Below, one piece after another: positions 18,065-61,926 of a stretch of DNA of 64,000 nucleotides. Below the pieces are notes generated by a model. That model ran no database searches, was not told the origin of the DNA, and saw only the letters and a list, made by a program, of their open reading frames with translations. This stretch comes from Prorocentrum cordatum (lineage: Eukaryota > Sar > Dinophyceae > Prorocentrales > Prorocentraceae). The position numbers were made by a program, and so were the translations under genes. The stretch is from the NCBI GenBank assembly GCA_963575745.1, contig CAUYUJ010018549.1, positions 1 through 64,000 on the forward strand, read 5' to 3'. How positions within the stretch are numbered: position 1 is the first letter of the stretch; each line of letters starts with the position of its first letter.

Positions 18065-18073
18065 ACCAGGTTG
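18065..18073 (+). repeat. Target-site duplication of LINE copy 1
   Basis: ACCAGGTTG at 18065-18073 is repeated at 19257-19265 on the other side of the insert. It lies in the loop of the family A hairpin. Confidence 0.8.
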
Positions 18074-19256
18074 GGACTAATGGTGTGGCTTCTGAGAATA
18101 TTGATTCAGGGAGTGGGTCGGCGGCTCTACTGCCCACACTCTCCCTGCCAGGTCATGATATTGATCACTGCAGTCCTGATAACAGAGCTTTCGTTGACAG
18201 CAGAAGGGGATTGCTCATGTACAATGTTGAGTGGACAACGCGCAGGGACATTATGACAGAATGTTGCCGTCTACACAGGAACCGTACTCAGGCATCCACG
18301 ATCAAGAGGTTGAGAGCTGGTCCAGAGAGGGTGGGCCAGCGTAGCTGGCAGTATCCATACATTCTTACATATGGCAGTTGTTGGTGGTCGAGTGTCGAGA
18401 CGAGTTATAGCTCTTTCCTGGAGATGTGGCAGAATCTTTTGTGTACGTACGATAAACCAAAGGTATTCCTGTACTTTGTTCAGAACTGGAAGGGCACAGC
18501 GGCGCACTATACACCTCCCGAGATGGGGGGGGATGCTGAGCGTATACCGAGTGAGAAAGATACACAAAAACTTGCTAAGAGATTGGCGATCATCTGCGAG
18601 AGGCAGACGGTATGGGACATTGTAAGTCCAGGATTCGGGGTAGAAATCAAAGGGGATAGTTTACTTGTGAATAACTGGCTGACGGGACGATGGCGGTGCG
18701 ACAACAAACAATACCAGAGACGGGTGGACCGATGTATTAACGTTCTAGATCGAGCTGCGGGGGATCTGGGTATTCGAAGTTCTGGATTGGGGAAAGACTT
18801 ATATAGGCATGAATTCAGGGAAGATAACACACGGGCTGATGAACTTACACATTTGGCCCGCGAGGGCCACTGCTTCTACAACCAATATGAGTACAAGTTT
18901 AGCTTTGAGGACTTTCTACAACCTATCGCCTGTCGTGGTGGATACGATGGGGGAGTTTGCAGCAAAGGAAGGGGGTGCGGCTTTTGGCTTCAAGTGGGTT
19001 TCATCAATCACAGATATGATTGTAATAAGTGTATCTCGTGTTCTCCTCTCCCCTCCTCCTCCCCCTATTCCGTGTCCTCTAATATGCCTCTCGTTTGGAG
19101 GGATGTGTGCGAAGCCGCGTGGTGCCTGGAGGGTGCTACGATAACCGACGCCGAACTTAGTGCTGCTGAGGCGCTTACTAGCGCTGTTGTGCATTTGGCG
19201 CAACAGATTCTGGCCGCCAGTTGACCCAGCTGGAGCATCGGTCCGAAAACCCAAAA
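18074..19256 (+). mobile_element. LINE copy 1, 5'-truncated
   Basis: Only the 3' part of ORF2 (linker and RNase H) and a 32-bp tail ending in CCCAAAA remain, which is typical of 5' truncation during target-primed reverse transcription. It is flanked by a 9-bp duplication and sits in the hairpin loop of A3. Confidence 0.8.
18085..19224 (+). pseudogene. LINE ORF2 C-terminal fragment with permuted RNase H
   Basis: An open fragment of about 379 residues lacks the APE and reverse transcriptase domains. The RNase H motifs occur in the order KGDSLLVNNWL (about 18649), REDNTRADELTHLAREG (about 18817), GGYDGGVCSKGRGCGFW (about 18934) and TITDAELSAAEAL (about 19141). In normal RNase H the DGG strand and the AEL helix come first, so the order is permuted, as in copies 2 and 3. 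The start at 18085 is just the first Met in the fragment and is not a real gene start. Confidence 0.75.
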
Positions 19257-19287
19257 ACCAGGTTGACGGTTTACCGCCGGCGCCAGT

Positions 19288-19332
19288 TTTGGGCGCTACC
19301 AAGTTTGATGCACGGTGATCGTTGGAGCACAT
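19288..19332 (+). other. Family C end fragment and short unassigned spacer
   Basis: 19288-19304 reads as a C right terminus (TTTGGGCGCTACCAAGT) directly after A3, consistent with A3 having inserted inside a C end between T bases. 19305-19332 matches nothing else I recognise. Confidence 0.5.
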
Positions 19333-19379
19333 GACTCGTAGAGCTTCTCCAAGCTAGTTGCTGGAAGCTTCAGAGTAAT

Positions 19380-20425
19380 GACTCGTAGAGCTTCCCTAAG
19401 CTAGTTGCTGGAAGCTTAAGAGTAATTCTGGCGCGCTGGAGAGCTAGTTGGCAAGAAAAATCTCGACGGAACTTTTGGTGACTTTTGGTCGGTTGAACAT
19501 TTTGTTCTCGAAATTTGACCATTCGTTAGGGCTCTAGTATTTTTTCCCGTGATATTCGATCTTATTCTCGCTCGCCATCTTGATCTCAGCTCGATCGGGT
19601 ACCTTTTATTGTCAAAAAGCACTCTGGCGGGATCGGCCGTTCCGAGTGATCTTGATACGCGCTGTCGGTTTTCTCAAGATAACTCGAGCTTCAGGGCAGC
19701 TACAGAGCTGGTCAGCACAGCTTACGGATTCAGAATGATCAGGCGCGTTCGCCTGTTGAACCCAGAGGTCTGAACTCGGTCTGCTAGCCGAGCTAGGTCT
19801 GCAAACCTATTCGTATTATTCGAGTCATCTTGACGGACGTTCTCGGTTTTATGTACTTAACTCGAGCAATAGGACAGCTACGGAGGTGATACTTGCATAA
19901 ACCGATTCAGAATGATCATTTGCGTTTGTTCGTCGAATCTAGAGCTCTGGACTAGGTTTGCTGTCCGATCTAGAATCGCGAAATTTTTCGTATTGGTCGA
20001 GTCATCTTGGGAAGTGCTCTCGGTGTTCTTCACTGAACTCGCGCTGAGGGGGGCTACAGTGCTTGTTGTCACAGTAATCGATTTGAAGAGATGAGGCACG
20101 TCCGCCTTTCGAATTCAGAGCTCGGAACTCGGTCTGCTGCCCGAACTAGGTCTGCGAAACTATTGTATTGTTCGAGTCATTCTGAGATGTGCTGTCGGTT
20201 TTCTGCACTTAACTCGGGCTGTAGGGGGGCTGCAGGGCTGGTAATGACAGAGTCGATTCGCAGACATCCGACGCGTCCGCCTGTCGCATTCAGAGGTCAA
20301 CAAATATTCACTATGAGTCGGAATGTTGGTAGGTGCAATCGGTTTTCTCAACTTAAGTCGAGCCAGGAAGCTCTACGAGTTCCCCTGCGGTAACCAAGGT
20401 TGACGGTTTACCGCCGGCGCCCAGT
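19380..20425 (+). mobile_element. Family B element B4 (complete, 1046 bp)
   Basis: GACTCGTAGAGCTTCC starts it, and GGAAGCTCTACGAGT, hairpin and GCGCCCAGT end it. It lies between AGAGTAAT and TCCGGCG of B3, again a restored AATTCC site. Confidence 0.75.
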
Positions 20426-20447
20426 TCCGGCGCGCTTGAGAGCTAGT

Positions 20448-20847
20448 ACCTCGTAGAGCTCTTCGGCATCGATGAGCTAGAGGAATTCCGGCGCGAGGTG
20501 GAGCTAGTTGGTCGGCCCGGCCAGAAAGGACAAAGTGATAACTTTTGGGTGGTTTTGCAATTTTTTGAAAGGTATTTGACAATTCATTTTGAGAAAGCAG
20601 ATTTTTCGCACCTGTAAACGACTATGAGGGCTTCTCTCTCTTAGTATGAGCTTTGTAGGCGCACTTTCACTATCAAAACACTTGGCGGAACCATCTTCAT
20701 GTCGACACGAAAAAATTAAATTTTTCTTTTTGTTCGAGAAATGCTTCCAGAAGCTCTCTCTTTCGACTCCGACCACTCTTACGCGTGGAATGAGCTCTAC
20801 GAGGTTCCCGGCGGTGACCAGGTTGACGGTTCACCGCCGGCGCCAGT
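20448..20847 (+). mobile_element. Family A element A4 (complete, 400 bp)
   Basis: It has 14-bp perfect inverted copies ACCTCGTAGAGCTC and GAGCTCTACGAGGT, the type A hairpin, and the GCGCCAGT end. Flanks AGCTAGT and TGGCTCG rejoin into the intact B3 sequence. Confidence 0.8.
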
Positions 20848-22066
20848 TGGCTCGAAAAAAAAGAACTGAACTTTTCACAACTTTTGGTCGGTTGAAAATT
20901 TCTTTCTCGAAATTCAACAATTCGTTTGTGCTCTAGTATTTTTTCCCGTGATATTCGATCTTATTGCCGCTCGCCATCTTGATCTCAGCTCGACCGGGTA
21001 CCTATTACTGCCAAAAAGCACACTGGCGGGATCGGCCGTTTCGAGTCATCTTGATACGCGTTGTCGGTATTTTGTACTTAACTCGAGCTGTAGGGCAGCT
21101 ACAGTGCTGGTAAGCACACCTATCGCACTCATAATCATCAGGCGCGTTCGCCTGTTAAATCCATAGGTCTGAACTCGGCCTGCTAGCCGAGCTAGGCCCG
21201 AAAACCTATTCGTATTATTCGAGTCAACTTGATACGCGTGCTGGGTATTTTCTATTTAATTCGAGCTGCAGGGCAGCTACAGAGCTGGTAAGCACATCCA
21301 TCGGATTCAGAATTATCAGGCGCGTTCGCTTCCGACTCCAGAGGTTTGAAATCGGTCTGCTAGCCGAGCTAGGCCCGCAATCTATTCGTATTATTCGAGT
21401 CATCTTGACAAACGATCTCGGTTTTCTGTACTTAACTCGAGCTGTAGGGCAGCTACAGAGCCTATAGTCACAGAAATCGATTGAGAATTATCGGGCGCGT
21501 TTGTCTGTTGTATCGATAGCTCTGAACTTGGCCTGCTGCCCGAGCTAGGTTCGCGAAACTATTCGTCTTGTCCGAATCAGTGTGAACAGTGCTCTCAATT
21601 TTCTGCACTCAACTCGTGCTGGGGGAGGGCTACAGTGCTGCGGGTCATAGAAATCGATTTTCATACATCAGGCGCGTTCGTTGGTCGATTCGAGAGCTCA
21701 GAACTTGGTCTGCTGCTCGAAACAGGTCCGCGAAACTATTGTATTATTCGAGTCATCCTGAGAGATGCTGTCGGTTTTCCTATTCAACTCGGGCTGTAGG
21801 GGGGCTGTAGGGCTGGTAATCACATGAGTCGATTCGCAGACATCAGACGCATCTGTCTGTCGCATTGAGAGGTCTGAACTCGGTCTGATACTCGAACTAG
21901 GTTGCGAAACTGTTTGTTTTTTGTTAGAGTCATCTTGAGAGGTCTGAAATCGCTTCGGCTGAAAACTAGTCGTTCTCTGGATTTTTCCCTACACTATATA
22001 CTGTCCGGAAGCTCTACGAGTCGCCCGGCGGTAAGAAAGGTTGACGGTTTAGCGCCGGCGCCCAGT

Positions 22067-26213: not shown

Positions 26214-26408
26214 GTATGAGTAAGTCTGTGTATGAGTAAGTCTGTGTATGTGTACGTCTGGGTATGACTAATACTGTGTATGAGTAAGTCTGTGCATGAG
26301 TAAGTCTGTATATGAGTATGTCCGAGTGTGAGTAAGTCTGAGTATGAGTAGGTCTGAGTATGAGTAAGTCTGAGTATGAGTAAGTCTGTGTATGAGCAAG
26401 TCTGAGTA
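26214..26408 (+). repeat. 16-bp minisatellite, about 12 copies
   Basis: The unit is close to TGAGTAAGTCTGTGTA, with variants such as TGAGTAGGTCTGAGTA. It starts directly at the end of the 152-bp satellite. Confidence 0.85.
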
Positions 26409-39615: not shown

Positions 39616-40621
39616 GACTCGTAGAGCTTCCCTAAGCTAGCAGCTGGAAGCTTAAGAGTAATTCGGACGCACTGGCGGGCTGGTTGGCTCGAAAAATCTC
39701 GACGGAACTTTTGCTGACTTTTGGTCGGTTGAAAATTTTGTTCTCGAAATTCAACAATTCGTTCGAGCTCTAGTATTTTTTCCCGTGATATTCGATCTTA
39801 CTCCCGCTCGCCATCTTGATCTCAGCTCGATCGGGTGAATATTACTATCGAAAAGCACTGTGGCGGGATCGGCCGTTCTGAGTCATCTTGATACGCGCTG
39901 TCGGTTTTCTGAACATAACTCGAGCTTTAGGACAGCTACAGAGCTGGTGAGCACAGCTAATCGATGTAGAATGATTAGGCGCGTTCGCTTGTTGAATCGA
40001 GAGGTCTGAACTCGGTCTGTTAGCCGAGCCAGGTCCGGAAACCTGTTCGTATTGTTCGAGTCATCTTGACAGGAACTCTCGGTTTTCTGTACTTAACTCG
40101 AGCTGTAGGACAGCTACAGAGCTGCAGTTTACAGAAACTGATTCAGAATTATCACTGGCCGTTGTCTGTTGAATCCAGAGCTCTGAACTCGGTCTGCTGC
40201 CCGATCTAGAATCGCGAAACTATTCGTATTGTTCGAGTCATCTTGAGAAGTGCTCTCGGTCTTCTTCACTCAACTCGCGCTGAGGGGGGCTACAGTGCCG
40301 GTGGTCATAGGAATCGATTTGAAGACATCAAGCGCGTCCGCCTGTCGAATCCAGAGCTCGGAACTCGGTCTGCTGCCTGAATTAGGTCTGCGAAACTACT
40401 GTATTGTTCGAGTCATCCTGAGAGGTGCTGTCGGTTTTCTGCACTTAACTCGGGCTGTAGGGGGGCTGCAGGGCTGGTAATGACAAGAGTCGATTCGCAG
40501 ACATCAGACGCGTCCGCCTGTCGCATTCAGAGGTCAAAAAATGTGCTCTATGAGTCGGAATGTTGGCAGGTGCTGTCGGTTTTCTCAACTTAAGTCGAGC
40601 TAGGAAGCTCTACGAGTCTCC

Positions 40622-40630
40622 TGGCTCAAG
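40622..40630 (+). other. Possible spliced-leader relict at LINE 5' end
   Basis: The insert starts exactly with TGGCTCAAG, the last nine bases of the dinoflagellate spliced leader as I remember it. A 15-bp tandem duplication (GCTCAAGGCGTGGTT) follows at once. Nine bases is short, so this is suggestive only. Confidence 0.4.
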
Positions 40631-40937
40631 GCGTGGTTGCTCAAGGCGTGGTTGCTCTGCGCATCCGACAGGGGTTTTAAACTCTGCCTGGACCTCGCCT
40701 CCAGTTTAGAGCCCCTACGCCAGCAAAGTTGTGTTTCGCTTACGTTACGAGGGCATGCACGCATCAAGCCCCTTGGGTAGTGGGCTTCATAGCTTCCCTC
40801 TTGCCAGTTTTCAATCAGCTGAATCTTGTTGTGCACTCAGGACGCGTTACAGATAGCAGATTCAACTTGGTTGTGGCAATTTCTTCAGTTGCACTTGTAC
40901 CTTGTCTCCTTGCCTCGTTCTCTTTCACATTGCAGTT

Positions 40938-42110
40938 ATGGAGGAAATGACAAGAGAAGAGGAGTTGGACATCGAAGGTATGGGAGGGAATGATCTTCAA
41001 AGCAAGATCCGTGGGGGTATACCGCCAGGTCTCTTGGATGCAGCAGCGGGAGCAGCAGGTGGACTTTTGGAGGAAGAAAAGGATGCTAAACGTCGTCGTC
41101 AGAGTGAGTTGGCACGGCAGCAGCGTGAGCAGGCATTGATTCAACAACAACAACAGCAGCTGAATCCTCAGTTGGCGGCACTCTCGCAGCTGCTCGGTTC
41201 GAAGTTTGCCACACAAAAGGAGAATTTTCAGTCTATCATGCAAGGTGAAGTTGCGCCGATCAAACTGAAGTTGGAAGAACACAGTACCGAATTGCAACGC
41301 CTCAATGCACAGGTGCAGTCACAGCAGAGACAGTTAGAAGCCCTCCAAAGTAAAACGAATGCCGATGCCCCAACAGTTGCTTCATCACGTGGGACTGGGT
41401 CGGGGAATCCTGGCTTCCAGTTCCAGGGTACTCGTGGGGAGTTTGGCTTCAAGGGTCCGAGGCCAACCTTCCAACCAACGATGATAACTATAAAATGATG
41501 GGCACGCACAGCGTCAGAAGAGCTTCATAAAAGATCCAAGGCTTTACTCCCTGGAGCGGTGGCCCAGCGCCTCCTTGCGACTCTGTTTCAAAAAGCGAAT
41601 TGCTTGGCGCACGTGGATGAGACAAAAACGAATGATGAGAACAGTAAGAACCCCATGGGATGTTATCAGCTCAAGATATGCTTCAAAGCCACGGCGACGA
41701 AGGATATGATGTGGGATTTTCGCAAAGCGTTCATTCAATGTTTCGAGCAGAAAGCCATCTGTGAGGATCCACACGACGCGACCACGTATAACCACATCTG
41801 TGATGAAAGGATCACGGTTACGGTGGAGGCCTCTCCGTGGCAAGAACCGCACATCAAAGCTGCTTGCAAATTCAAGGCCCTATTTTATAAACATCGTTCG
41901 TGTGCCAGCGCCTTTGTAAAGGTGGAAAAATATGGACCCCCAGCCACGTTTCTATGGGCTTACCCGTCCGAGCAGCAGCTGCAAAAGGGACAGTGTGTTG
42001 CCTCATGGAAGCCTGATCGTGCAGTGGGTTGGAAGATTGATGAGGATATGATCGAGGAAGTCGATCCAAACTTCAAACTGGGGGACTTCAAAGCTGATCT
42101 CATGAGTTGA
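40938..42110 (+). pseudogene. LINE copy 2 ORF1, one internal stop
   Basis: The first in-frame ATG is 40938 (MEEMTREEELDIEG). A Gln-rich coiled coil spans about 41080-41350. An in-frame TGA at 41496-41498 interrupts the frame, after which the same frame continues (WARTASEELHKRS) to the terminal TGA at 42108-42110. The C-terminal part has VTVEASPWQEPHIKAA, which matches VHVEAPPWKKPHLDAA of copy 4, and probably forms an RNA-binding domain as in L1 ORF1p. Expected role: nucleic acid-binding chaperone of the retrotransposon RNP. The internal stop looks like a mutation rather than a designed break, because copies 3 and 4 lack it. Confidence 0.7.
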
Positions 42111-45100
42111 CGGTGCCCTGGCAAGTGGCACGAACAATTGGCTGAGGTTGATCGCTCAATTTTCAGCTGGAACGTTCGATTGCTAGGGATTGCACAATGC
42201 CACGAGATTTTCGCCCAGGTCTTCAATTCAAGCAATGTGATTCTCCTTCAAGAGTGCCAGTTTGTCTCCGATCGTGTTGCTGAGGAACACGGTTGGAATC
42301 TTTGGCGCTCCTCTTGTGAGCGGGCTTGCGTGGGCCTCCGAGGTGTTTGGAAGGATGATGTCCAACACGAGGCCAGAGGCGACCGTTGGTATGCCGTTGT
42401 TTGCTTTAGTGCCATCTTTCTCTCTCTTTACTTGTCCCATAAGTATTTGCGTGGAAAGTCTCGTGAGCAGTTTTTGCGTACGCTTAGTGTATACCAAGAA
42501 GTGCTGAGGGATGCAGCGCTCAATGTTGCCAGATTGAAAAAGCAGTTTCGAATTCAGGATGTTGTTTTAGGAACTGATGCTAATGTAGAGGTCGAGCCTC
42601 AGGTTTTCCACATGTCTCAGGCTGTCTTTGGGTCCTAGTGTTGTAGGTGTGCCTATTGTCCCTCGTACGAGGGATGGCGGATTTCAGAGGCGATCTAAGG
42701 AGTTTGCTTTGGAACTCAGTGCGGCTCTTACTTTCACTATTGGCACCCTGGGCCTCCAGTTGGCCAACACCTTCAACCCTACGAGGCTCCCTACCTGGCG
42801 CTCTGCTAAATGGGCTCACTACAGGCACCTACCTCAAGAACAGCAGTACTCTCACGTCTACGACTACATAGGTGTACCTTCGTCTTGGGGAGCTCCTGAG
42901 GTCTCCGTCTTGTGGCCACAGCCGGGGGCAGCACATATGTCTGGGAGTTCGGCCTCGAGCTTTTGGAGTGATCATGGTCTGTTACACTTGCGTATCCCTG
43001 CTCGTGTCTTGCCTCGTCGAGTTGTGCGTCCCAATCCTGTCCGCAACACACGTTGGCACGTTCAGTCTCATCGTGTACCTCTTTTGCGCTATGCGGTTGA
43101 TGCAGCCCTGGTGTCTGGCAACAGCCAGACAGAACAGACCGATTGGAGTGGACATACGGGTCTCTCGCCCACGGAGCTAGGTGACAAGATTCGACAGCCT
43201 TGTGAGGAAATCGGCGAGGTCCCCACCAAAGCCGACCTCACCCCGAAAGTTTCTGAGCAGTATGTTGCCGCTCGGGAGGCTGCACTTGAGATGAGGAGGA
43301 AGAGAAATAAGGGTGAATGCACGGAGGAGGAGTTCAAGAAGGCGAGGAGGAGGTACATATATGAGAGGAGGAAGCGTGGGAGGAATATATTGGAGTATGA
43401 GTTCCGTCCAGGTCTACAGCACCGAACATACCTTAAGACGCTCAAAGTTGAGGGAGTGCACACTTGGGACAAGTCTAAGTGGGAGAAGGCCCTCAGAGCG
43501 CACGGCTTGGCCATGTACACTGATGAACATGAGCGTGCACGCACAAACAGTAAGCTTGAGGAGATGAGGAAGAGGTTGCAGGAGGTGAATATGCAGGAGT
43601 ACCAGCCTATCGATATCGGCCTGCTCATGCGTGCTAGGTCTCGTCTTCGTTCAGGAAAGGCCGTAGGTAAGGACAACATCAGCGTCTCCATGCTTAAGCA
43701 CATCCCTTGGTCAGGTTGCCTTCAAGTCTTGCGGTGCTTTCAGCAGCTGTTTATGCGCGAGTATTGCACACCCACATCATGGCGCCATATATGTATACAG
43801 CTGATGCCGAAGTCTGTGAAGACTTGCGAATTCAATGACACACGAGCTTTATCATTATTATCTTGCCTGTCAACATGGTATATGTCATGTCTCACCTTGT
43901 TGGCCGTGGACCATCTCAAACGGAGTGTTGCCCCCGAGGTCATGCTCTTCGGGTTTGTTGCTGGAAGACGGACACACGAGATTACAGGTGGTTTGAAGAG
44001 AGTTGCGCAGCACGCGACGGAATGGGGGAAGTCATATTGTATGCACACGGCGAGCTTAGACGTGTATCGTGCTTTTGATAACGTACAGGTGGCCGACGTT
44101 ACTGACTGCCTGGAGGAGTTGAGGTTTCCACCTGAACTTAGTTATGCGCTCATGGAGGGCCTAGCTGAGAACAGGGCCGATTTATCCTTCCAGCAGGTGG
44201 ACGTCTCGGACATAGCTTGGGATAGTTGTATCCGCACAGGTAGTGTTGAGGCTCCGCTCTTTTGGCTGTGTGAGAGTGTGCTCATGTTCCGTTCTGTGGT
44301 CTTGAGTTGGCAGGAGCGGGGGATGGGAGTGCAGTTGACGCAGCAGGCAGGGACTCGTCATCCTACACATGCGATTTGGGCCGACAGTGTTCTGTTGTGT
44401 GCCAGAGATCAGAGCGAGTTGACGACCATGATTGCGGAGATCAGTGTCCCACTTTATCACAGAAAGTACAGATGGAAACCGAGTAGCTTGCAGTTTATTC
44501 GCTTTGGCTATGATGAGCCTGGGACTGAGAGTTTGGATGTCTCTCTTGCGTTGCCGAATTCCCAGGACAAGCGTCAGAGAGTGACTATAACGTTGCAGCA
44601 GACAGATCGTTTGGAAATACTTGGCACGATTCTTGAAAACAGCATGCGACAACATGAGGACTTGAATCATCGGATTTCTCTCGCTCAAAAGGCGTTTTGG
44701 CAAGATAAGAAGTATTACATGTGCCAGGGTATTAAGTTGAAGAAAAGATTGCTGCGATACGACTCACGTGTAAGAAGCCGATTATTGTTTGCAGTGGAAG
44801 GGATGTCAGCTGACAAAAATGCTATTGAATCGATTCATGCGTTTGAAGGCCGCTTACTTTCGAAGATGGTATGGAGACGGAAACGTGACACCGAGAGTTG
44901 GCCACAGTTTTTTTTTTTCAGAGCGTGTACTTGACGGGGCGGAAAGCACTCAGGACAGCTCAGATGCCGAGTGCGGTTCAGCTCTTTCTTTTCAAACAGT
45001 GGAGTTGGGCAAAGGATGTGGCGACGACAACTGCTCAGAACGGGATCCGCCAAGTTGATGACGCCCAGCCTACAATTGATCCAATGGAAATGGGTGGTGC

Positions 45101-46487
45101 AGTGTCTCTTGATATGGATGGGATGTCTCAGAATGCGTTTGCTACTGTACCGATTACCACGGACTTGATGTCTCAGAATGCGGGCGCGGTCGTACCGATT
45201 ACCACGGGTTCGACGTCTTTGAATGCGGGTGCTGCTGTACCGATTACCAGAGATCTGAAACGACGGAGGGTGACTGTTATTGTGGCCCCTGTCCTTACTG
45301 CCCGAGGGGACCTCACCGTTGCTCTGCCAGAGGGTCAGGAGAACAGCGCCACGAGTCAGAACCGACGACGGCTTATCTCTCAGGCGTCCCGTTCTGCTGC
45401 CAAAAGGAGCAAGACTGCTCCCACATCATCGACGCCATCATCATCATCAGCCCCTACACCAGCGCCAGCAGCCATGCGAAGAAGGTTTCGAAGTGATATG
45501 GTGGGGGCGAGTGCGGATGACCCTTTCTTGCAGGCTCGTTACACGATGATGCATGCCGCCAGCCCGTGGACACAGCAGATGGATGCCGTTATTCGCACCT
45601 ATAACTCGCAGGAAGCACGATCCTTTACACGTCGAAGGGAAGGTGGAAAAACGGTGGGACTTCGTCCGTGGGGCTTGCCATTTGAAACGGTGGGTGGAGA
45701 TGCTTGGTATGATACTCTGGAGTGGACTCAGGCAGGGTGGAGATGTTTTATCCGTACGTTGCTTTCGGAATGGGACCTACAACATGTTTTAGAATATGCT
45801 CACCTGCCTGAACCAAAACCCTGGAGGCCGAAAAACGACGAGGAGGAGGTGGAGGGGACGGAGGAGAGAAATAATGAGATTTCAAAGCGGCTCGCCTTTA
45901 ACTTCGAGAATGCCAGCGTCTGGAACTACGAGGCTGAAGGGATTCCCGTCGAGCTCTGTGGGGACTCCCAGGTGGTAGTGAACTGGCTGGTGGGACAATA
46001 TGTATGTACGACGGAAGTGTATTGTGAGACCATTGCACACATTCAAAGTATATTATACAGATTACACTTGAACTACCGCGTGAATCTGAGGCCGCCGTCT
46101 TGGGGTTTAGATCCTTGGAAGTGGTTTTATCGTGAGGGAAACGAGCGTGCTGATGCTGAAACTTGGAAGGCCCGCACGGGCCAGAACCATCGTACTTTCG
46201 ACCCGTGCATTCATACTCTCAGAAGGGAACAAATAACGGGGATTCGCGGCTACTTCGATGGTGGTCGTTCCTCCCACGGTGTTGGCATTGGTTGGGTTAT
46301 TGACTTATTCGTGCTCCCCCTCCCTGCTCTTCAACACTCTCAAGGCTCTTGGCTATTCAACATAGCCTCCGAGGCTGCCGCCATCCCGCCGACCTGCACG
46401 GTTAGTCAAGCTGAGCTCTTGGCCAGCAAGCGCCTCGCTGAAGGTGTCGAGCACCTGCTGCTCCTCTGCTGCGGACCTGAATCCTGA
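42111..46487 (+). pseudogene. LINE copy 2 ORF2: APE, reverse transcriptase, RNase H; two frameshifts
   Basis: It continues in the ORF1 frame after TGA with RCPGKWHEQL and the APE motif SWNVRLLG. APE motifs LLQECQF and GTDANVE follow. A frameshift near 42628 moves to frame 1 (QAVFG to PSVVG). In that frame APE ends with SFWSDHGLLHL, then the reverse transcriptase: palm motif A LDVYRAFDNV (44055-44092), RTGSVEAPLFW, and motif C WADS (Asp codon 44383, Ser 44386). A second frameshift falls at the T11 run 44908-44918. The rest (to 46487) is a Ser/Thr-rich linker and an RNase H-like domain with motifs in permuted order: GDSQVVVNWL, YREGNERADAE, GYFDGGRSS, VSQAELLAS. Only 43 bp separate the stop from the insertion end. 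Confidence 0.8.
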
Positions 46488-46564
46488 GCGGGGGCTCCTT
46501 TGTCCCTGTGGGCTCCGAGCAAAGCAAAAAAACCAAGGTTGACGGTTTACCGCCGGCGCCCAGT

Positions 46565-49094: not shown

Positions 49095-49913
49095 CCGGCC
49101 AGAAAGGACAAAGTGTTAACTTTTGGTCGGTTTTGCAATTTTTTGAAAGATATTTGTCAATTCATTTTGAGAAAGCAGATTTTTACTCCGAGCATTGAGA
49201 TATAAACTTCGTTCCCTGAGCAGCTCAGCCCTCTAAAGCCATTTTCAGTACCAGTTCACTTGGAGCAACCGACTTCATGTTGACTCCGAAAAATCTCAAC
49301 TTGAAGTCTTTGTAGAAAAGCTCCCAGAAGCTCTCCCTTTAATCCTGAGCTTTCTCACGGATACAAGGAGCTCTACGAGGTTCCCGGCGGTGACCAGGTT
49401 GCTGCTGTCCCTCCTCGGGGATCTCAGCGGTGGCCTGGCCCGTCGGGGGCCTCCTCAAGCCTGTCTCCTCAGGCTGCCCCCTGGGCGGCCGTGGGCGCGC
49501 GTGGGTGCGCGCTGGCCCATAAGTTCGTGTACTTCGTCGGCTGCAACCTCCTGGACGTGCTGCGCATAGGTCGCTGCATTTGTACTCTGCTCGTGTTAGC
49601 GGGTGAGCCCACACGTGCCGCTGGAGGCGCAAGGCCGCTACCTGTTGCACTTGTATCTTTGCTGTTTGCTTGTGATACTCTTGGGAGCCCAGCACTTACC
49701 AGTTTTGCTCTGGCAGTTGAGAAGGACACTTTGACCGTTTTTGTTGCAGCAGATTTCATCACGTACCGACTTTCACCTTCACGGGGTTGGGATAAGTTTC
49801 TTGAAGAACTCGAGGACGAACACTATCGTGATCTGGAGGCTAGTAGGTGCCCTACTTGTCGAGCTTATCGGTATTCTACTTCCAGTTGTGGGCAGTGTGA
49901 TCTTAAGAGGAAG

Positions 49914-51026
49914 ATGGTTCCGACTTCTGATGATGATATGGGAACTGAGGGCAACGGAGAGAAGCGACAGAGGAAGCTCCTGGAAGATAGACGTCTTCTT
50001 GGTGATGCCGAGGGTGGTGGAGGTGGGGCAGTTAGTGGGAATGGAAGTGGTAGTAGTGGAGGAGGAGGAGGTGATGCTGGAGATCTGGCCACTATGCTCC
50101 GTGCACAGTTCGATGCCATGCGTGAAGATATGCAGAGGATGCTTATGCAGAACTCTGTTGACATCAAAGAGCAGATTCAAACGAGGGTATCAGAGCAGGT
50201 TGCCCCTATTGCTTCGTCGGTGCAGGAGATTCGTTCAGCTCAGGAGGCCCAGGCGAAAGAGATCAAAGCACTTCAGTCTCAGATGAACTCTAGAGATCCC
50301 TGGGCAGATTCATCATCTCTGGGAGGTGCGTCTACTCGTGATTCTCGTACTGCTGACTTCCAGAGACCCTTTGTACCACATGTTCCGACTTGGATCCAGG
50401 TGAGCGGCTTCGCGCAAGAGGACCCCCGAAAGGTTGAAACTCGAGATAAGGCCAAGATCCAGGTCACCACGGTTAGGAACATGATAGGTAAGTTGTACAC
50501 ACTATCGCAAGCACGGGAGAGTGACGTTACTAAGATCTTCGACAGAGGTAGGACGGACGGGGATATCGCTTCCAATCGATTTGGTGTGACCAAGTTTCGC
50601 ATATACTTCATGCCAGGGACTTCGAAAGAGACGGTCTGGGAAGTACGCAACGAGTGGGCCTCAGCCTGGTCCAATTCGTGCCCTGATCTGGTCGGTTGTC
50701 AGAATAGTTTTGGACCATGCAAAGATCGACACCTCGGTTGGTTTGTCCAACCGGCACCACAGGACCGACGTAGAGTGGGGGAGACTCGCAAGGCGACTGC
50801 GATCTTTCATAAGCTCAAGACTGTTGCCACTGCTCTCATCACTTTTGAGCCTGAAGGGCCTGCAAAGGCTTGGGCATACCTGCAGAAGGATAGTCAGAGT
50901 GATAAAGTGTGTGTAGGTACGTGGACGGATACCGTGGGATGGAAGTTCGTGTCCGAGCGGGTCCAGCACATCGATCCAGATCTGGACTGCAAGACTTGGG
51001 AGAGGCAGGTGAATAGCAGCTCGTGA
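49914..51026 (+). CDS. LINE copy 3 ORF1 (coiled-coil RNA-binding protein)
   Basis: The start is the first in-frame ATG (MVPTSDDDMG), giving about 370 residues. The frame is open upstream to at least 49491 and includes a possible zinc knuckle, CPTC then CGQC at about 49848-49898, so a longer N-terminus is possible if translation starts at a non-ATG codon. A Gly/Ser-rich stretch (about 50010-50080) leads to a coiled coil (about 50090-50290, MREDMQRMLMQNSVD then VQEIRSAQEAQAKEIKAL). The C-terminal half contains RFGVTKFRIYFMPG, matching the RARLYFQNG block of copy 4, and is probably an RRM-like domain. It ends at TGA 51024-51026, directly followed in the same frame by ORF2. The role as RNP-forming chaperone is inferred from L1 ORF1p-like layout. 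Confidence 0.7.
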   Translation: MVPTSDDDMGTEGNGEKRQRKLLEDRRLLGDAEGGGGGAVSGNGSGSSGGGGGDAGDLATMLRAQFDAMREDMQRMLMQNSVDIKEQIQTRVSEQVAPIASSVQEIRSAQEAQAKEIKALQSQMNSRDPWADSSSLGGASTRDSRTADFQRPFVPHVPTWIQVSGFAQEDPRKVETRDKAKIQVTTVRNMIGKLYTLSQARESDVTKIFDRGRTDGDIASNRFGVTKFRIYFMPGTSKETVWEVRNEWASAWSNSCPDLVGCQNSFGPCKDRHLGWFVQPAPQDRRRVGETRKATAIFHKLKTVATALITFEPEGPAKAWAYLQKDSQSDKVCVGTWTDTVGWKFVSERVQHIDPDLDCKTWERQVNSSS

Positions 51027-51036
51027 CGGTGCCCAG
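51021..51036 (+). promoter_or_regulatory. Candidate stop-codon readthrough site, LINE copy 3
   Basis: TGA CGG TGC C joins ORF1 and ORF2 in one frame. The same ten bases occur in copy 2 at 42108-42117; copy 4 has TAG AGG TGC C at 62971-62980. UGA followed by CGG is a known readthrough context in some plant RNA viruses. Function here is inferred. Confidence 0.5.
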
Positions 51037-54000
51037 CTTCTGTTGGAGGTTGGAACGTTCGGAGGTTGGGAAGATACACCTCCGAGTGCATGAATCACAT
51101 TGCCGAATTAAAGATTTCCATCGTCGGGGTCCAAGAGAGCCAGTTCTTACACGACTTGGATCTTGCAGATGCGGGTTGGGATATACATCGCTCGGCAGAT
51201 GAAGGGGAGAACGTGGGGAGACGGGCTGCCATCTTGTGCCGAGGTGTATGGAGACATCTGCTTATCGATGTTGTGTGTGGTCGCCGCTGGGTCATTGCAA
51301 TCTTTCGCAAGCTCATCTTCGTTTCTGTCTATCTCCCTCATAAGGAGTCTGAGCGGGGTGCACAGGGTGAAGCACGCCGTTCTCCTGAAGGGTTTCTTGC
51401 TAGTTTCAAGCTCTATACGGACGTGTTATCGGATCTTGTTGCACATGTCTCTGCGGCCAAAAAGCGATTTCACATTGAGGAGGTTGTTACCTCGGCTGAC
51501 GCCAACGTGGAGGTTTTCCCGCACCACAGGATCAATGGGGTGGAGGTTACGGGGGAGGCGGTGAATGGGCCTATACGTAAGAGGGGGAGGTCTAGTGGAG
51601 GTGACGAAAGTAGAGCCAACAGGATGAGGGAGATGTACTCGGGGGCCTTTCTGAAGACCATGGAGGCCCTCAAGTTGCAGCTAGCCAACACTTTTGGGAC
51701 TCGTCAGCCTACTTGGAGACACAATTCGAGCACATACGAGCACGTCTATGACTATCTTGCGGTCCCAGCTTCTTGGATGACTCCAGAGGTGACTTGTTCT
51801 TGGGTTGTGCCGTCCCAGGTCCCACGGTCGGAGGCGACGGAAAGGACGTTTAGCGATCACAAGCTCTTGTGTGCCGATATGCCCGCCCAGCATGCTCAGT
51901 TGAGGTATCGACGTCGGCCTCAGCTCAAGACCTGGAAGCTTCAGCCAGGGTTCGAGCTCCAGCAGACAGCCGGCTTGGAGAGAGCGATTTGCCAGCCCGA
52001 GCTCGTGAATCAGATCCACACGGATGTAGGTTTTGAGGTCATGACACAGAGTATACTTGAGGGTGCCAGTGAGACTTTGGATATCTCCCGTTCCCGTGGT
52101 CAGCCTGTTTCAGACTATCCCAGATATTCGGAGGAGGATTTACTGATAAAGGAGGAGTTCTTTAAGGTCAGGAAGAGGTGGAGGGTGGCACGATATGGCG
52201 GGGCTAACGTGGGACAGGAGGAGTACGAGAGAGTCCAGGAGGAGTACAAGGGGACAGCAAGGAGGTGGCGTCGAGTACGTAAGCGTCATGATCGTGCATG
52301 TGAGCTTTACCGTATTCGTGATGGTGTCCGTCGTAGGCCTGTTATTACGCACATGTATGTTGACGGGGTCCTCACGCGTGACCAGGAGAAGTGGATTGAG
52401 GGCCTTCGGCGGCATGGGCTCCTGAGGTACTCCAGCGATCCCCACCGACAGGACACCAACGCGTGCTTGGATGAGCTTAAGAACCAGTGTAAGGCCCTGC
52501 GAGACTCTGGAGAGCCCCACCGCAACCCGATCAACATGGGTCTCTTGCTGGAGGCACGGTCTAGACTCAGGGAAGGACGGGCAACAGGTGCAGACGGGGT
52601 GACGTCGTCGGTGCTCAAAGCATTGCCATGGGAAGCCCTCCGACACATACTTACCTTATTCCGTTTGCTGTACGATCAGAAACATGTTTCACCGAAGTCC
52701 TGGAGAGAGATCTTGGTATGCTTGATGCCTAAGAATCCCAAGGCTCGTGATTTTGAAGAAACGCGGGCCCTCTCACTTCTTTCTCATTTTGGTAAGTGGT
52801 ATAGCAGTTGTCTATGTGTACTTCTAGAGCACCGCGTTCGGCAGGCTGCACCGCCAGGTTGCAACTTATATGGCTTTATTGCGGGGCACAAATGTTATGA
52901 GGTCACGGCCCCCCTCAAACGTCTTGCTCAACACGGCGTTGTGTGGGGGAAGGAGGAGAGTCTTTATCTTGCAAGTGCTGACATTGAAAAGGCGTTTGAT
53001 AATTTCACGGTGAGATGTGCAGCAGAGGCGCTTTTATTCCATCATGTCCATCCTGCCCTTGTGTATGCTGTCTTTGAGAGTTATGCTTGTAATACGGCAG
53101 AGATCAGCTTCCAACAGTGTTCTACGACCATCTCGTGGGATACTTGCATACGTACAGGCTCCTTGGAGGCGCCTTTGCTGTTTGTTGCCCAGACACTTCG
53201 TATGCTTGCACCAGTGACGGCAGGTTGGAGGCAGTCTGGATACGGCGTCAGGCTCACTGATGAGGCATCCAATCTCTTGGTCAACCACTGGCTGTGGGCA
53301 GACAATATTTTGCTGGCAGCAGCTTCCAGGCGAGAACTGACTCATATGCTCGAGGACTTGACTGGGGTCCTCCACCGCTTCGGTTTCAACTGGAAAGCAT
53401 CTTCGATGGAGTTCTTGGCTTGTGGCGTTCAAGGTCCATTGCAGGATATCCGCCTGCCTGTACCGGGGCTCCTGCCTGCTGAGATGGGTAGGAAGCGTTC
53501 TCGTGGGGCTTCCCAGAGCGCCGCAGGCCCTTCGGAGGAGATGATAGTGAGGCAGGTGGAGAGGATGGAGGTTCTCGGCACGCTATTGGATGTACGATTT
53601 CAGGATCATGACGACATTAAGCACCGACCGGAGAAGGCACGGAGGGTCTTCATGAGTGAGAATTCTTTTTACTCGTCGCCCGTGGTTCCGCTTCGTTGTA
53701 AGTTTCAGCGTTATGATAGCAGGGTCAGAAGTTGCTTTCTGTACGGCTTGGAGGGTACGACTCTGGATTCGAGTAGTCTCCAACAGATACATGCAGCTGA
53801 AGGCAACTTCTTGTCCACCATGAGACGTCTCAAAAAGAAGATCACGGAGTCCTGGGGAGAGTACTGGGGCAGGAGGATTAAGGGTGGCCGTCGCTTATTG
53901 AAGTGGGCCCGTAAGCCTTCGATGGTCCAGCTCGCCCTTCATCGCCAGTGGCTCTTCGCCAAACATGTTGTGAGCACAATCCATGAGGAACATAGTCGGG

Positions 54001-55295
54001 TGGATGAGGACGCACTCAGTCAGGGCATTCTTTATCATGAGCCACGAGATCCTGATATTTTTGGTGGTTCGCAGCGTTTCTTGGAGTTATCGGTTCCCTC
54101 GCCTACCCCGAATGCCAGACAGCTCAACAGTTCGTGTAGGAGAAAGGCACAGAGCGCATCTTCCTTGGAAAGTAGATCAGTTCGCAGACGTATATCGGAG
54201 AACACGGCATATGAGCATCACGATTCACAACATGTACATGAGCCTGTTCGTAAGCGGGTACGCCATACCTATGCACGGGAGGAGGAAGGAGGATTGCCCA
54301 CTGCCAGTATGCAGAGCGCCTTGACGATGATGCACGCGTCGGGGGAGTGGACTGAGCAGCGTGACGTACATGTTAGAGCTCTCCCTGGGGGCCGAAGGTT
54401 TACTAGAGCCTGTCGTCATCGAGTCTTGACGGGACTCAGGCCTTGGTTCGAGGTCTTCGAGCACACGCGCGGGGTTCATTGGGATCGCACGATGGTCTGG
54501 AATGAAACTGGCTGGCGTTCTTTCCTGGTGGGTACCCTGGCCGCCCTGGACTTGGATGATCTTCTCGAGTTCTGCCTTCTTCGGGATCCCTTCACGGGTG
54601 AGTTCAAGCAGGAGGAGGAGGGGGAGGAGAAGTCTGAGGAGCAGCAACGACGGGAAAATGAACGGGTGGCGAAACGACTGGCCGCGATAAATGATGATGA
54701 AACCACTTGGCGTGGGGAAGGGGGTGGATATGGCTTGGAGCTCCGTGGGGATAGCCAGTGTGTTGTGCGCTGGCTTAATGGAAGATATCGCTGTCATAAT
54801 GAAGTATACCGCCGCACGATCAAGGGTATGCAGAACCGCCTCCACAGAATGAGTGAGGACCATCATCTTGTCACGGCTGAAGTGGGAAGGGATATGTGGA
54901 AATGGGTGTATAGGGAGGGCAACGATGAGGCGGACTATGAGACACATCTTGCACGTGAGGGTAAAGTAACTTCTGATGTTCGTTGGAATCATAACACTCT
55001 TTATCATATTAGATCGGGTCATTATATTGTTCGTGCACTTAGAGGAGCTTTTGACGGTGGGCGGTGTGAGCGTGGCACCTCGTGTGGCTGGGTTATTGAT
55101 GTTTATCTTGTTCCCTCTCTTCCTCCTCACCAGCTTCCCCCTGGACTTGTGCAGGGTGGATGGCACCCTGGAGTTGGCCGCAGAGGTTTCATGATCCCTA
55201 GCCATTGCACGATCACACAGGCTGAGTTGGCAGCTGCACATTCTCTTCTCAATGGCATTGCCGAGATGTGTATACACGTACAACTTGGCAGGTGA
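51027..55295 (+). CDS. LINE copy 3 ORF2: APE endonuclease, reverse transcriptase, permuted RNase H
   Basis: The frame continues from ORF1 past one TGA with no further stop for 1,422 codons; it has no ATG before the APE motif GGWNVRRLG at 51045-51071, which argues for readthrough or a non-ATG start. APE: VGVQES (about 51126), VYLPH (about 51330), SADANVE (about 51494), VYDYLAV (about 51745), FSDHKLL (about 51850). Reverse transcriptase: RATGADGV (about 52577), motif A ADIEKAFDNF (52977-53009), RTGSLEAPLL (about 53152), motif C WADN (Asp codon 53301, Asn 53304). RNase H-like end: GDSQCVVRWL (Asp 54750), YREGNDEADYE (Asp 54933), AFDGGRCERG (Asp 55053), TQAELAAAHSLL (Glu 55224), in permuted order. 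It makes cDNA by target-primed reverse transcription at the nicked hairpin. Confidence 0.85.
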   Translation, partial: RCPASVGGWNVRRLGRYTSECMNHIAELKISIVGVQESQFLHDLDLADAGWDIHRSADEGENVGRRAAILCRGVWRHLLIDVVCGRRWVIAIFRKLIFVSVYLPHKESERGAQGEARRSPEGFLASFKLYTDVLSDLVAHVSAAKKRFHIEEVVTSADANVEVFPHHRINGVEVTGEAVNGPIRKRGRSSGGDESRANRMREMYSGAFLKTMEALKLQLANTFGTRQPTWRHNSSTYEHVYDYLAVPASWMTPEVTCSWVVPSQVPRSEATERTFSDHKLLCADMPAQHAQLRYRRRPQLKTWKLQPGFELQQTAGLERAICQPELVNQIHTDVGFEVMTQSILEGASETLDISRSRGQPVSDYPRYSEEDLLIKEEFFKVRKRWRVARYGGANVGQEEYERVQEEYKGTARRWRRVRKRHDRACELYRIRDGVRRRPVITHMYVDGVLTRDQEKWIEGLRRHGLLRYSSDPHRQDTNACLDELKNQCKALRDSGEPHRNPINMGLLLEARSRLREGRATGADGVTSSVLKALPWEALRHILTLFRLLYDQKHVSPKSWREILVCLMPKNPKARDFEETRALSLLSHFGKWYSSCLCVLLEHRVRQAAPPGCNLYGFIAGHKCYEVTAPLKRLAQHGVVWGKEESLYLASADIEKAFDNFTVRCAAEALLFHHVHPALVYAVFESYACNTAEISFQQCSTTISWDTCIRTGSLEAPLLFVAQTLRMLAPVTAGWRQSGYGVRLTDEASNLLVNHWLWADNILLAAASRRELTHMLEDLTGVLHRFGFNWKASSMEFLACGVQGPLQDIRLPVPGLLPAEMGRKRSRGASQSAAGPSEEMIVRQVERMEVLGTLLDVRFQDHDDIKHRPEKARRVFMSENSFYSSPVVPLRCKFQRYDSRVRSCFLYGLEGTTLDSSSLQQIHAAEGNFLSTMRRLKKKITESWGEYWGRRIKGGRRLLKWARKPSMVQLALHRQWLFAKHVVSTIHEEHSRVDEDALSQGILYHEPRDPDIFGGSQRFLELSVPSPTPNARQLNSSCRRKAQSASSLESRSVRRRISENTAYEHHDSQHVHEPVRKRVRHTYAREEEGGLPTASMQSALTMMHASGEWTEQRDVHVRALPGGRRFTRACRHRVLTGLRPWFEVFEHTRGVHWDRTMVWNETGWRSFLVGTLAALDLDDLLEFCLLRDPFTGEFKQEEEGEEKSEEQQRRENERVAKRLAAINDDETTWRGEGGGYGLELRGDSQCVVRWLNGRYRCHNEVYRRTIKGMQNRLHRMSEDHHLVTAEVGRDMWKWVYREGNDEADYETHLAREGKVTSDVRWNHNTLYHIRSGHYIVRALRGAFDGGRCERGTSCGWVIDVYLVPSLPPHQLPPGLVQGGWHPGVGRRGFMIPSHCTITQAELAAAHSLLNGIAEMCIHVQLGR

Positions 55296-55557
55296 CTGTT
55301 TGTGTATAATATCTGCATAGCTCCGCTGTTGTAAGATACATGCTTAGCCCCACTGTTTCTTGATGTGTGTATATTCCTGTGCAGCTACGCTGTTGTATCA
55401 TATATGCACAGCTACGCTGACTTGTATATCGCACAGCTCCGCTGTTAGTGCTTAGGTTGCCTGTAGGTAATCCTACCGCTGGCCCTGCCCCCTAAGGGGG
55501 CTCGAATCGGGCCCCGCAGACCGCAGACCAGGTTGACGGTTCACCGCCGGCGCCAGT

Positions 55558-58982: not shown

Positions 58983-59251
58983 TTTGGTAAGATTTGAAAG
59001 ATATTTGACAATTTATTTTGAGGAAGCAGATTTTTACTTTTTCCGCGAGCAGCTCAGCTCTTTCGAGACAGTGTTACTATCCAAACATTTGGGGGAACCG
59101 ACGTGATATTGACACCGAGAAATGCAAGTATGATGTTTTTCTACAAATGCTCTGAGAAGCGGTCTGCTTTGAATCTGAGAATTCTTACGCGTGCAAGGAG
59201 CTACGAGGTTCCCGGCGGTGACCAGGTCGCCGGTTCACCGCCGACGCCAGT
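58983..59251 (+). mobile_element. Family A element A11, left part missing
   Basis: Interior from GATTTGAAAGATATTTGAC to the hairpin with loop variant CCAGGTCGCCGG and ACGCCAGT end. Confidence 0.65.
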
Positions 59252-60054
59252 TCCGGGGCGCTGGAGAGCTAGTTGGCAAGAAAAATCTCGACAGACCTTT
59301 TGGTGACTTTTGGTCGTTGTTCTCGAAATTCAACAATTCGTTTGAGCTCTAGTATTTTTCCCGTGATATTCGACCTTATTCCCGCTCGCCATCTTGATCT
59401 CAGCTCGATCGGGTACCTTTTACTGCCAAAAAGCACTCCGGCGGAATCGGCCGTTTCGAGTCATCTGATGCGCAGTGACGGTTTTCTCAAGATAACTCGA
59501 GTTCGAGGAGAGCTACAGAGCTGGTAAGCACAGCTAATCGATTCAGAATGATCAGGCGCGTTCGCCTGTTGAACCCAGAGGTCTGAACTCGGTCTGCAAG
59601 CCGAGCTAGGTCTGCAAATCATTTGTATTATTCGAGTTATCTTGACAGAAGCTCTCGCTTTTCTGTACTGAACTCGAGCTACAGGACAGCTACAGAGCTG
59701 ATACGTCAGAATATGATTAAGAATCATCAGTGGCCGTTGTCTGTTGAATCCAGAGCTCTGAACTCGGTCTGCTGCCCGATCTAGAATCGCGAAACTATTC
59801 GTATTGTTCGAGTCATCTTGAGAGATGCTGTCAGTTCTCTGCACTTAACTCGGGCTGTAGGGTGCTGCATGGCTGGTATTCACTGGACTCGATTCGAGAC
59901 ATCAGGCGCGTCCGCCTCTCGAATCCAGAGCTCCGAACTCTGTTTGCTGCACTTGGGCTGTAGGAGAGCTACAGAGCTCGTGCAGAAGACAATCCAGAAG
60001 CATCGAGGGCGTTCTGCTGTTGCATCCGAGAGGTCTGAAATTGCTTGGGCTGAA

Positions 60055-60091
<37 letters not shown>

Positions 60092-60176
60092 TATTTTTCC
60101 AACATTATATGTTGTCAGGAAGCTCTACGAGTCCCCCGGCGGTAACAAAGGTTGACGGTTTACCGCCGGCGCCCAG
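59252..60176 (+). mobile_element. Family B element B13, left end missing
   Basis: It starts TCCGGGGCGCTGGAGAG, as if A11 had inserted at its AATTCC site. Leader and about three array units, a run of 32 T at 60059-60090, then GGAAGCTCTACGAGT, hairpin and CCCAGT. Confidence 0.7.
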
Positions 60177-61421
60177 TTCGCAAGAAAAATCTCGACGGAC
60201 CTTTTTTCTGACTTTTGGTCGGTAACTCGTAGAGCTTCCCTTAGCTAGTTGCTGGAAGCTTAAGAGTAATTCCGGCGCGCTGGAGAGCTAGTTGGCAAGA
60301 AAAATCTCGACGGACCTTTTGCTGACTTTTGGCCGGTTGAAAATTTTGTTCTCGAAATTCAACAATTCGTTTGTGCTCTAGTATTTTTTCTGACCACATT
60401 CGATCTTATTCCCGCTCGCCATCTTAATCTCAGCTCGATCGGGTAAATATTTCTGCAAAAAAGCATCGCGGCGGGATCGGCTGTTTCGAGTCATCTTGAT
60501 ACGCGTTGTCGGTATTTTGTACTTAACTCGAGCTGTAGGGCAGCTACAGAGCTTATTCTCACAGCAATCGATTGCGAATCATGAGGCGCGTTCGTCTATC
60601 CCATCTAGAAGTCTGAACTCGGTCTGCTGTTCGAGCTAGTTCCGCGAAATTATTCGTGTTGTTCGAGTCATTTTGAGAGGTGCTGACAGTTTTCTGCACT
60701 TAACTCGGGCTGTAGGGGGGCTACAGGGCTCGTACTCACAGGAATCGATTCGGAGACATGAGGCGCGTCCGCCTGCCGAATCCAGAGCTCGGAAATCGGT
60801 GTGCTGCCCGAGCTAGGTTCGCAAAACTATTCGTATTCGTCGAGTCGTCTTGAGAGGTACTGTCCGTTTTCTGCACTTAACTCAAGCTGTAAGGTGGCTG
60901 CAGGGTTGGTAATCACTTGAATCGATTCCGAGACATCAGTCGCGTCCATCTGTCGCATTCAGAGCCCTGAACTGGGCCTGCTGCCCGAGCTAGGTTCGCG
61001 AAACTATTCGTATTGTTCGAGTCATCTTCAGAGGTGCTGTCAATTTTCTGCACGTAACTCGGGCTGTAAGGGGGCTGCAGGGCTGGTAATCACAGGGATC
61101 GATCCAGAGACATCAGGCGCGTCCGCCTGTTGCATTCAGATGTCTGAACTCGGTCTGATACTCGAGCTAGATTCGCGAAACTATTTGGATTGTTCGAGTG
61201 ATCTTGAGAGGTGCCGTCGATTTTCGCACGTAACTCGGGCTGTAGGAGAGCTACGGAGCGCGTGCGCAGAGAAAACGATCCAGAAGCGTCGGGGCGTTCG
61301 GTTGTTGCATCGAGAGGTCTGAAATCGTTTAGGATGAAAAATTATTCGTTCTCTGCAATTTTTTTCGACATTATATATGCTCAAGGAAGCTCTACGAGTC
61401 CCCCGGCGGTAACAAAGGTTG
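60177..61421 (+). mobile_element. Family B leader fragment and element B15, host of LINE copy 4
   Basis: 60177-60223 is a B leader piece. B15 starts AACTCGTAGAGCTTCC at 60224 after TTGGTCGGT. It has five 178-bp units (anchors near 60487, 60663, 60838, 61017 and 61193) and the 5' hairpin arm at 61403-61412. Its right end is displaced by LINE copy 4 beyond the window. Confidence 0.7.
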
Positions 61422-61926
61422 AGGAAGCGGAGATTACCTCCCGCTCTCCCTCGGCCTTGGCCCGTCGGGGGCTCCTCGAGCTGCATCGTGCAGTCAGGTA
61501 GCCTGCCCCTGGCCCGCCGCGCGGGGGCGCGTGGCGATCGGGCCACTTCGGCGACTTCGGCGAGTCCGAGGTAAGCAGGCCGCCTGCCTTTGTTTGTATT
61601 TGGTTGTGTGCATTGTTGCGGCATTTTGCCGCGTCGAGCTGGACGGGACGAGCCAGAGTCAATCGATCGATCTGGACCGCTGGGGAGCCAACTTCGGACA
61701 CTGGGAGTGGGAGTATCTTGCCAGACAGGTTGGTAACGCTTGTCACGACGATAAAGATTCTCTAGTTGACATACCATCTGGACCACCTGATCTCTCTCCC
61801 ACTTTACCTCACAAACCTTGTACCCCATATAACTTTCATCAGTTAAGTGCGCATCTCAAACGTACTCGAGAAGATCGATCGTTCTGTGCGAAGTGGAATA
61901 TCCCTTGTAACATCTCAGACGGCAAG

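Follow-up and report, generated by a model that had tools for sequence, protein, structure and literature searches.

The window analysed here is a stretch of 64,000 nucleotides of Prorocentrum cordatum DNA (contig CAUYUJ010018549.1, positions 1 to 64,000 of the forward strand) and contains four inserts of long interspersed nuclear elements (LINEs), referred to as copies 1 to 4. The target of all four is the 3'-terminal hairpin of short host repeats, which belong to two families, A and B, and both the LINEs and their hosts are on the + strand in 4/4 cases. The features of the four loci are listed below (ORF, open reading frame; ATIR, asymmetric terminal inverted repeat; TSD, target site duplication; APE, apurinic/apyrimidinic endonuclease-like domain).

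18041..18073 (+): host A at copy 1, 3' ATIR, hairpin 5' arm and loop; other arm at 19257-19287
18074..19256 (+): LINE copy 1, 5'-truncated, RNase H tail only, in ORF 17956-19224
18065-18073 and 19257-19265: TSD of copy 1, ACCAGGTTG
40606..40625 (+): host B at copy 2, 3' ATIR and 5' arm remnant; loop and 3' arm at 46532-46564
40626..46531 (+): LINE copy 2, near full length, ORFs broken, 5' junction rearranged
40857-41498 and 41499-42110 (+): ORF1 frames of copy 2
42111-42638, 42589-44934 and 44889-46487 (+): ORF2 pieces of copy 2
49369..49401 (+): host A at copy 3, 3' ATIR, 5' arm and loop; other arm at 55526-55557
49402..55525 (+): LINE copy 3, ORF1 and ORF2 open, TSD on both sides
49392-49401 and 55526-55535: TSD of copy 3, GACCAGGTTG
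49305-51026 (+): ORF1 frame of copy 3, entering from the host
51027-55295 (+): ORF2 of copy 3, 1422 aa
61388..61421 (+): host B at copy 4, 3' ATIR, 5' arm and loop
61422..64000 (+): LINE copy 4, cut by the window end, with ORF1 and the APE part of ORF2
61423-62973, and from 62974 (+): ORF1 and the APE part of ORF2 of copy 4

Junctions, precision and independence of the inserts

Read at the base level, the target is broken exactly after GGTTG in three of the four inserts (copies 1, 3 and 4), and in the three visible 3' junctions (copies 1, 2 and 3) it restarts at the (G)ACC of the loop. The host of copy 1 reads ...GGTGACCAGGTTG up to 18073 and continues with ACCAGGTTGACGG from 19257, which gives a TSD of 9 bp; its first A could also belong to the insert, which itself ends in A's (A is the last base of the inserts of copies 1 and 2). 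The host of copy 3 reads ...GGTGACCAGGTTG up to 49401 and continues with GACCAGGTTGACGG from 55526, with a TSD of 10 bp; these are the two copies with both junctions clean. The host of copy 4 reads ...GGTAACAAAGGTTG up to 61421. In copy 2, host-like sequence up to ...CTCCTGGC (40625) is followed by a 15-bp tandem repeat, TCAAGGCGTGGTTGC, and the target restarts at ACCAAGGTTGACGG / ACCAAGGTTG (46532). This repeat, located at 40626-40655, contains GGTTG then CT, as at the copy 3 junction, and is possibly a scrambled GGTTG junction. The original prediction had placed four same-orientation inserts at these positions, with the break after GGTTG in copies 1, 3 and 4, duplications of 9 and 10 bp, and, at copy 2, a target that resumes on the 3' side after a small deletion. 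The junctions agree with it on each of these points, the loss at copy 2 being a few host bases at the rearranged 5' side, where the 15-bp repeat also lies.

With the inserts taken out and the host flanks joined, uninterrupted paralogues elsewhere in the window align to the flanks straight through the join in all three copies tested (copies 1-3), two of the joins showing small imperfections. The joined flanks of copy 3 match 16395-16676 (90%) and 20523-21111 (75%), those of copy 1 match 16404-16831 (75%), and those of copy 2 match 20082-20426 (91%) and 17397-17743 (87%). Two uninterrupted termini represent these empty sites:

16622..16676 (+): family A terminus, empty-site paralogue with ATIR, hairpin and CCAGT end
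20369..20425 (+): family B terminus, empty-site paralogue of copy 2 (91% over 346 bp)

With 23 hairpins in 48,204 non-LINE bases and a tolerance of 3 bp, the probability of hitting the site by chance is ~0.0014 per insertion, and ~3e-9 for three further insertions at a site set by the first, with the 3' junction standing for copy 2. The 23 hairpins come from a hand list, and the choice of site was made with the data in view, though the margin is very large. In agreement with the original prediction, no other LINE was detected in the 64 kb by tblastn with the LINE proteins (queries included the relatives P0006-P0009, see below, and the ORF2 part of copy 4): nothing outside the four intervals was better than E 0.15, except for matches of host sequence at the start of stop-to-stop ORFs. 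One such match, of the copy 1 ORF on 57711-57904 (E 0.026), linked a piece reaching into LINE residues 41-76, and was gone when the LINE part alone was used as query.

The inserts themselves are strongly diverged. No blastn match at E 1e-3 was found between inserts in 6/6 pairs, copies 2 and 3 both being near full length and the pair 1/4 being uninformative (copy 1 is only a 3' end, copy 4 only a 5' part). Protein identity is 36% for ORF2 (copies 2 vs 3), 30-42% for the RNase H block (copies 1-3), 25-35% for the APE block (copies 2-4) and 18-21% for ORF1 (copy 3 vs copies 4 and 2). The left flanks of copies 1 and 3, in contrast to this, are 88% identical over 297 bp, and the left flank of copy 2 has its longest match in copy 4 (78% over 232 bp); these matches agree with the host classes that had been assigned earlier (A for copies 1 and 3, B for copies 2 and 4). 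Since the flanks are 78-88% identical as DNA, yet the insert DNA is unrelated, the inserts are to be read, at the sequence level, as four separate insertions of old, diverged LINE families at one site and not as one duplicated event. The families number at least three, because copies 1 and 4 share no region and may belong to one family. The target choice looks like a trait of the clade. Of the originally predicted site-specific APE-type LINE in the terminal hairpin of another element, the APE motifs, the precise site and the mobile-element hairpin stand, whereas the single LINE is replaced by at least three divergent families.

Duplication does happen here: the host segments flanking copy 3 (48094-49099 and 55557-56563) share 98.7% identity over an alignment of 1,008 bp, which by their sequence reflects a recent duplication that involved the host and not the LINE. 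That a segmental duplication, or the transposition of a loaded host, made all four inserts from one insertion, a check named with the original prediction, is nevertheless practically ruled out by insert DNA without similarity and proteins only 18-42% identical where they overlap, against flanks that are 78-88% identical, and by the fact that the non-overlapping copies 1 and 4 have hosts from different families.

Host elements and their terminal hairpin

Host families A and B carry 11-bp repeats, CTCGTAGAGCT near the 5' end and AGCTCTACGAG directly upstream of the 3' hairpin. The 3' end consists of a 10-bp stem with the loop CCARGGTTGACGG or variants, followed by CC(C)AG and T. A T was found three bases before the repeat in 25/25 exact 5' copies (out of 46 exact repeat matches, the other 21 being set aside as 3' inverted copies), while one near-match of the repeat (28370, minus strand) is without it, and AGT is present at 21 of 22 host 3' ends. 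The asymmetric inverted repeats CTCGTAGAGCT / AGCTCTACGAG, with their length of 11 bp, are a Helitron2 trait. The distance from the 3' ATIR to the 3' end is ~43-45 bp in both families, which departs from the ~20-30 bp of Helitron2, and a 5' hairpin involving the 5' ATIR was obtained with z -3.69 in one of four folded ends, compared with -0.62 to -1.35 in the other three. The hosts are named Helitron2-like, and not Helitron2, because of this more distant 3' ATIR and the uncertain 5' hairpin.

The hairpin was aligned over 19 uninterrupted copies (one of them strongly decayed, another whose loop is deleted), two partial copies (near 30540, and at 31836 on the minus strand) being left out. In this alignment 94.6% of the stem cells are paired, a value reached by 1 of 500 shuffles and falling to 23-62% when the stem is slid. 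Between families A and B, an A-U vs G-C double change keeps a stem pair; this class difference may be a single event. Both strands fold, with z from -2.2 to -3.45 in eight folds of four copies (two of them identical in sequence).

A frame of 3770 codons at 411-11723 encodes DUF6570, Helitron_like_N, a PIF1 helicase and a C-terminal UCH ubiquitin hydrolase. By these domains it is a RepHel with an attached deubiquitinase-like domain, and it shows that the window contains Helitron-type elements; no termini matching the host repeats were found beside this ORF. Head-to-tail runs of Helitron2-like 5' ends of ~50-70 bp are located at 47530-48060 and 39514-39690, their units each beginning after T and several ending with GAGCTAGT. 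The window also contains a 152-bp tandem repeat (25583-26338); two of three further copies are 96-97% alike over 300 nt, and the last 65%.

LINE proteins

Motifs of the APE domain (WN, QE, DAN, YDY, SDH) are present in the three copies that hold the domain (2, 3 and 4); the patterns were written after the alignment had been seen, copy 4 reads CE and LDY, and the domain of copy 2 is spread over two frames. Pfam Exo_endo_phos gave a weak match for copy 2 (E 0.14) and none was reported for copies 3 and 4. RVT_1 was found in copy 3 (E 1.3e-7, above the cut-off) and copy 2 (E 2.4e-4, below the cut-off). Motif A of the reverse transcriptase (RT), ..AFD, is present. The usual motif C of LINE RTs ends in DD; here it reads WADN in copy 3 and in the relatives P0001-P0005, and WADS in copy 2, so that its second Asp is replaced in a clade that includes the open-ORF copy 3. 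ORF1 and ORF2 share one frame with a single stop between them in copies 2, 3 and 4. The context of this stop is TGA CGG TGC C in two copies and TAG AGG TGC C in one, which makes it a candidate for readthrough or reinitiation. The coordinates of these features, and of the RNase H domain, are:

53295-53306 (copy 3) and 44377-44388 (copy 2) (+): RT motif C
42108-42110 (copy 2), 51024-51026 (copy 3) and 62971-62973 (copy 4) (+): ORF1/ORF2 stop
54735-55292 (copy 3; GDSQ..NDEAD before FDGG..AEL), 45924-46484 (copy 2) and 18616-19221 (copy 1) (+): RNase H domain

In the RNase H domain, GDSQ/GDSL and NxxAD precede FDGG/YDGG and AEL in all seven sequences that hold it (copies 1, 2 and 3, and P0001-P0004, of which P0002 is nearly P0001), isolated AEL matches in other parts of copy 3 and P0003 being disregarded. 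The usual order of these motifs is the reverse. A five-sequence profile matched RNase H structures of the PDB better with the halves swapped, across the join, than in native order for 3u3g (E 0.002 vs 0.28), and was likewise better when swapped for 4e19 (0.0068 vs 0.032) and 3aly (0.0071 vs 0.018). Pfam RVT_3 matched three of five half-swapped single domains with 17.4-19.4 bits, short of the 21.6 cut-off in each case; the match ran across the join in copy 1 and P0004 and stayed inside one half in copy 3. Of five unswapped controls, two matched (14.9 and 13.0 bits), full-length proteins serving as controls in the case of P0001 and P0004; copy 2 and P0001 gave no RVT_3 match in either order. The RNase H of these LINEs thus appears to be circularly permuted, which the profiles support without proving it. 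A full-text literature search, whose coverage excludes most subscription papers, found no report of a permuted RNase H in LINEs.

The protein relatives P0001-P0007 were found by searches that scored the 8,000 candidates sharing most words, and two further, weak ones (P0008, P0009) by alignment search. P0006 and P0007 both begin within ORF1, and no host sequence was found at their starts. Related DNA loci were found neither in IMG/VR or GTDB contigs nor in phage or plasmid records, and Rfam and tRNA scans gave no match. A possible relic of the dinoflagellate spliced leader at the 5' end of copy 2 (GGCTCAAG at 40623) was rejected as chance.

Target recognition and known systems

Given the junctions, TSDs, common orientation, LINE divergence, empty paralogues and motifs observed in the window, we consider it highly likely that a clade of APE LINEs inserts site-specifically in the 3'-terminal hairpin loop of non-autonomous Helitron2-like elements, which suggests retrotransposons living by targeting another mobile element. 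From these observations we infer the specificity of the enzyme, the order of its nicks, the priming and a rule for the whole genome. Target-primed reverse transcription at a fixed site would be the simplest account. The ORF2 endonuclease would first nick the bottom strand where the loop begins on its 5' side (GGTRA^CC or GGTR^ACC as read on the top strand), and the freed bottom-strand 3' end would prime reverse transcription from a LINE RNA tail that is A-rich or ends in GACC; the top strand would then be cut 8-10 nt downstream, after GGTTG, to leave a duplication of 9-10 bp. Copy 3 has CCGCAGACCGCA as its 3' end, followed by target GACC, and a short match between RNA and target is reported to help the accurate start of SART1 (PMC7265360). 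LINE TSDs are generally 10-20 bp (PMC6895275). The target preference would be older than the divergence of the LINE families, and would let them build up in an abundant, dispensable target.

Several points weigh against this interpretation. The evidence base is four insertions, all from a single 64-kb window. The 3' junction of copy 4 lies beyond the window, so that its TSD is not readable, and copy 2 is rearranged, with a few host bases missing and without a clean 5' junction. The contigs that carry the relatives P0001-P0007 do not exceed 6,253 bases and give no flanking context. Stem pairs changed on both sides number two, a count reached by 79 of 500 shuffles, and sequence and hairpin are both carried by 4/4 hosts, so that recognition of the hairpin is not separable from that of the linear sequence.

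What the endonuclease reads may be considered separately. It is fairly probable that it reads a linear sequence (about ACCARGGTTGACGG) and that the hairpin is incidental, being simply where a high-copy repeat is best conserved. According to published descriptions, known site-specific LINEs read the target DNA sequence directly (PMC3706591; PMC8869645), and among the hosts AGGTTGACGG shows strong conservation while the loop is variable in its 5' half; against this, the loops CCAG, CCAAG and CAAAG were accepted before GGTTG at the insertions, so the site is partly loose. Recognition of the hairpin itself, as a cruciform or a single-stranded loop, perhaps exposed in rolling-circle replication of the host, is rather unlikely. 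The cuts fall at the stem-loop edge and within the loop, the stem is maintained, with a class difference that preserves a pair, and both strands fold; DNA structure is also critical for second-strand cleavage in the site-specific R2 LINE (PMC6895275), although the R2 endonuclease is of a different kind (RLE), and each of the four targets has both the sequence and the structure. More doubtful still is the extended proposal that the whole LINE clade specialises in the rolling-circle 3' terminator hairpin and reads its extruded or single-stranded form, so that loaded ends would lose their terminator and capture neighbouring DNA by read-through. It is very improbable that LINEs inserted widely and survived only in Helitron-like arrays, by selection and not targeting: a repeat-rich context may tolerate insertions, but selection leaves the single-nucleotide precision unexplained, and no LINE was found in the 48 kb of the window that lie outside the inserts.

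If site-specific insertion in the hairpin loop holds genome-wide, it would define a group of APE LINEs with a niche in the end of a rolling-circle transposon and one target common to at least three divergent families. Such a group would offer a natural system for whether LINE endonucleases read sequence or DNA shape, for how target choice holds while proteins diverge, and for the fate of Helitron-type transposition once the terminator hairpin is split; in Helraiser, deletion of the hairpin raises read-through (PMC4778049).

Site-specific APE LINEs, and LINEs aimed at other transposons, are already known (PMC4640811, PMC8869645), 'other TEs' being named among the targets of non-LTR elements (PMC8869645). 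LINEs targeting a Helitron-type terminal hairpin were not found among the matches listed in full-text searches, which is weak evidence given the same restricted coverage. The site-specific APE LINEs of the Tx1 and R1 clades (Tx1L, R1, SART1) are alike in having APE and RT and one fixed site (PMC4640811). This likeness is judged by domains and the fixed site. Tx1L sits inside Tx1D. Unlike these clades, the LINEs of the window have a Helitron2-like 3' hairpin as target, a WADN/WADS motif C and a C-terminal RNase H of permuted order. By profile, the nearest solved protein is human L1 ORF2p (8c8j, E 8.7e-8), with which the APE-RT layout is common, followed by R2 proteins (E 0.01); the target preference of human L1 is only loose, and it is not known to carry an RNase H. 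Among dinoflagellate LINEs, SymbioLINE-Dnmt and others are also APE-RT LINEs of an alga (PMC5890265); they carry a DNMT ORF1, and 'site-specific' is absent from the text of PMC5890265. Helitron2 elements such as Chlamydomonas CRe have asymmetric terminal inverted repeats of 8-15 bp, a 3' ATIR just upstream of the 3' hairpin and a 5' T (PMC3627910). The hosts of the window resemble them in the first two respects and probably in the third, and differ in the distance of the 3' ATIR from the end (~43-45 vs ~20-30 bp) and in a RepHel ORF that is not linked to the termini. Bacterial REP-targeting insertion sequences and group IIC introns insert in the loop of a palindrome or terminator, and these LINEs are like them in palindrome-loop insertion, carried out by enzymes unrelated to those of the bacterial elements.

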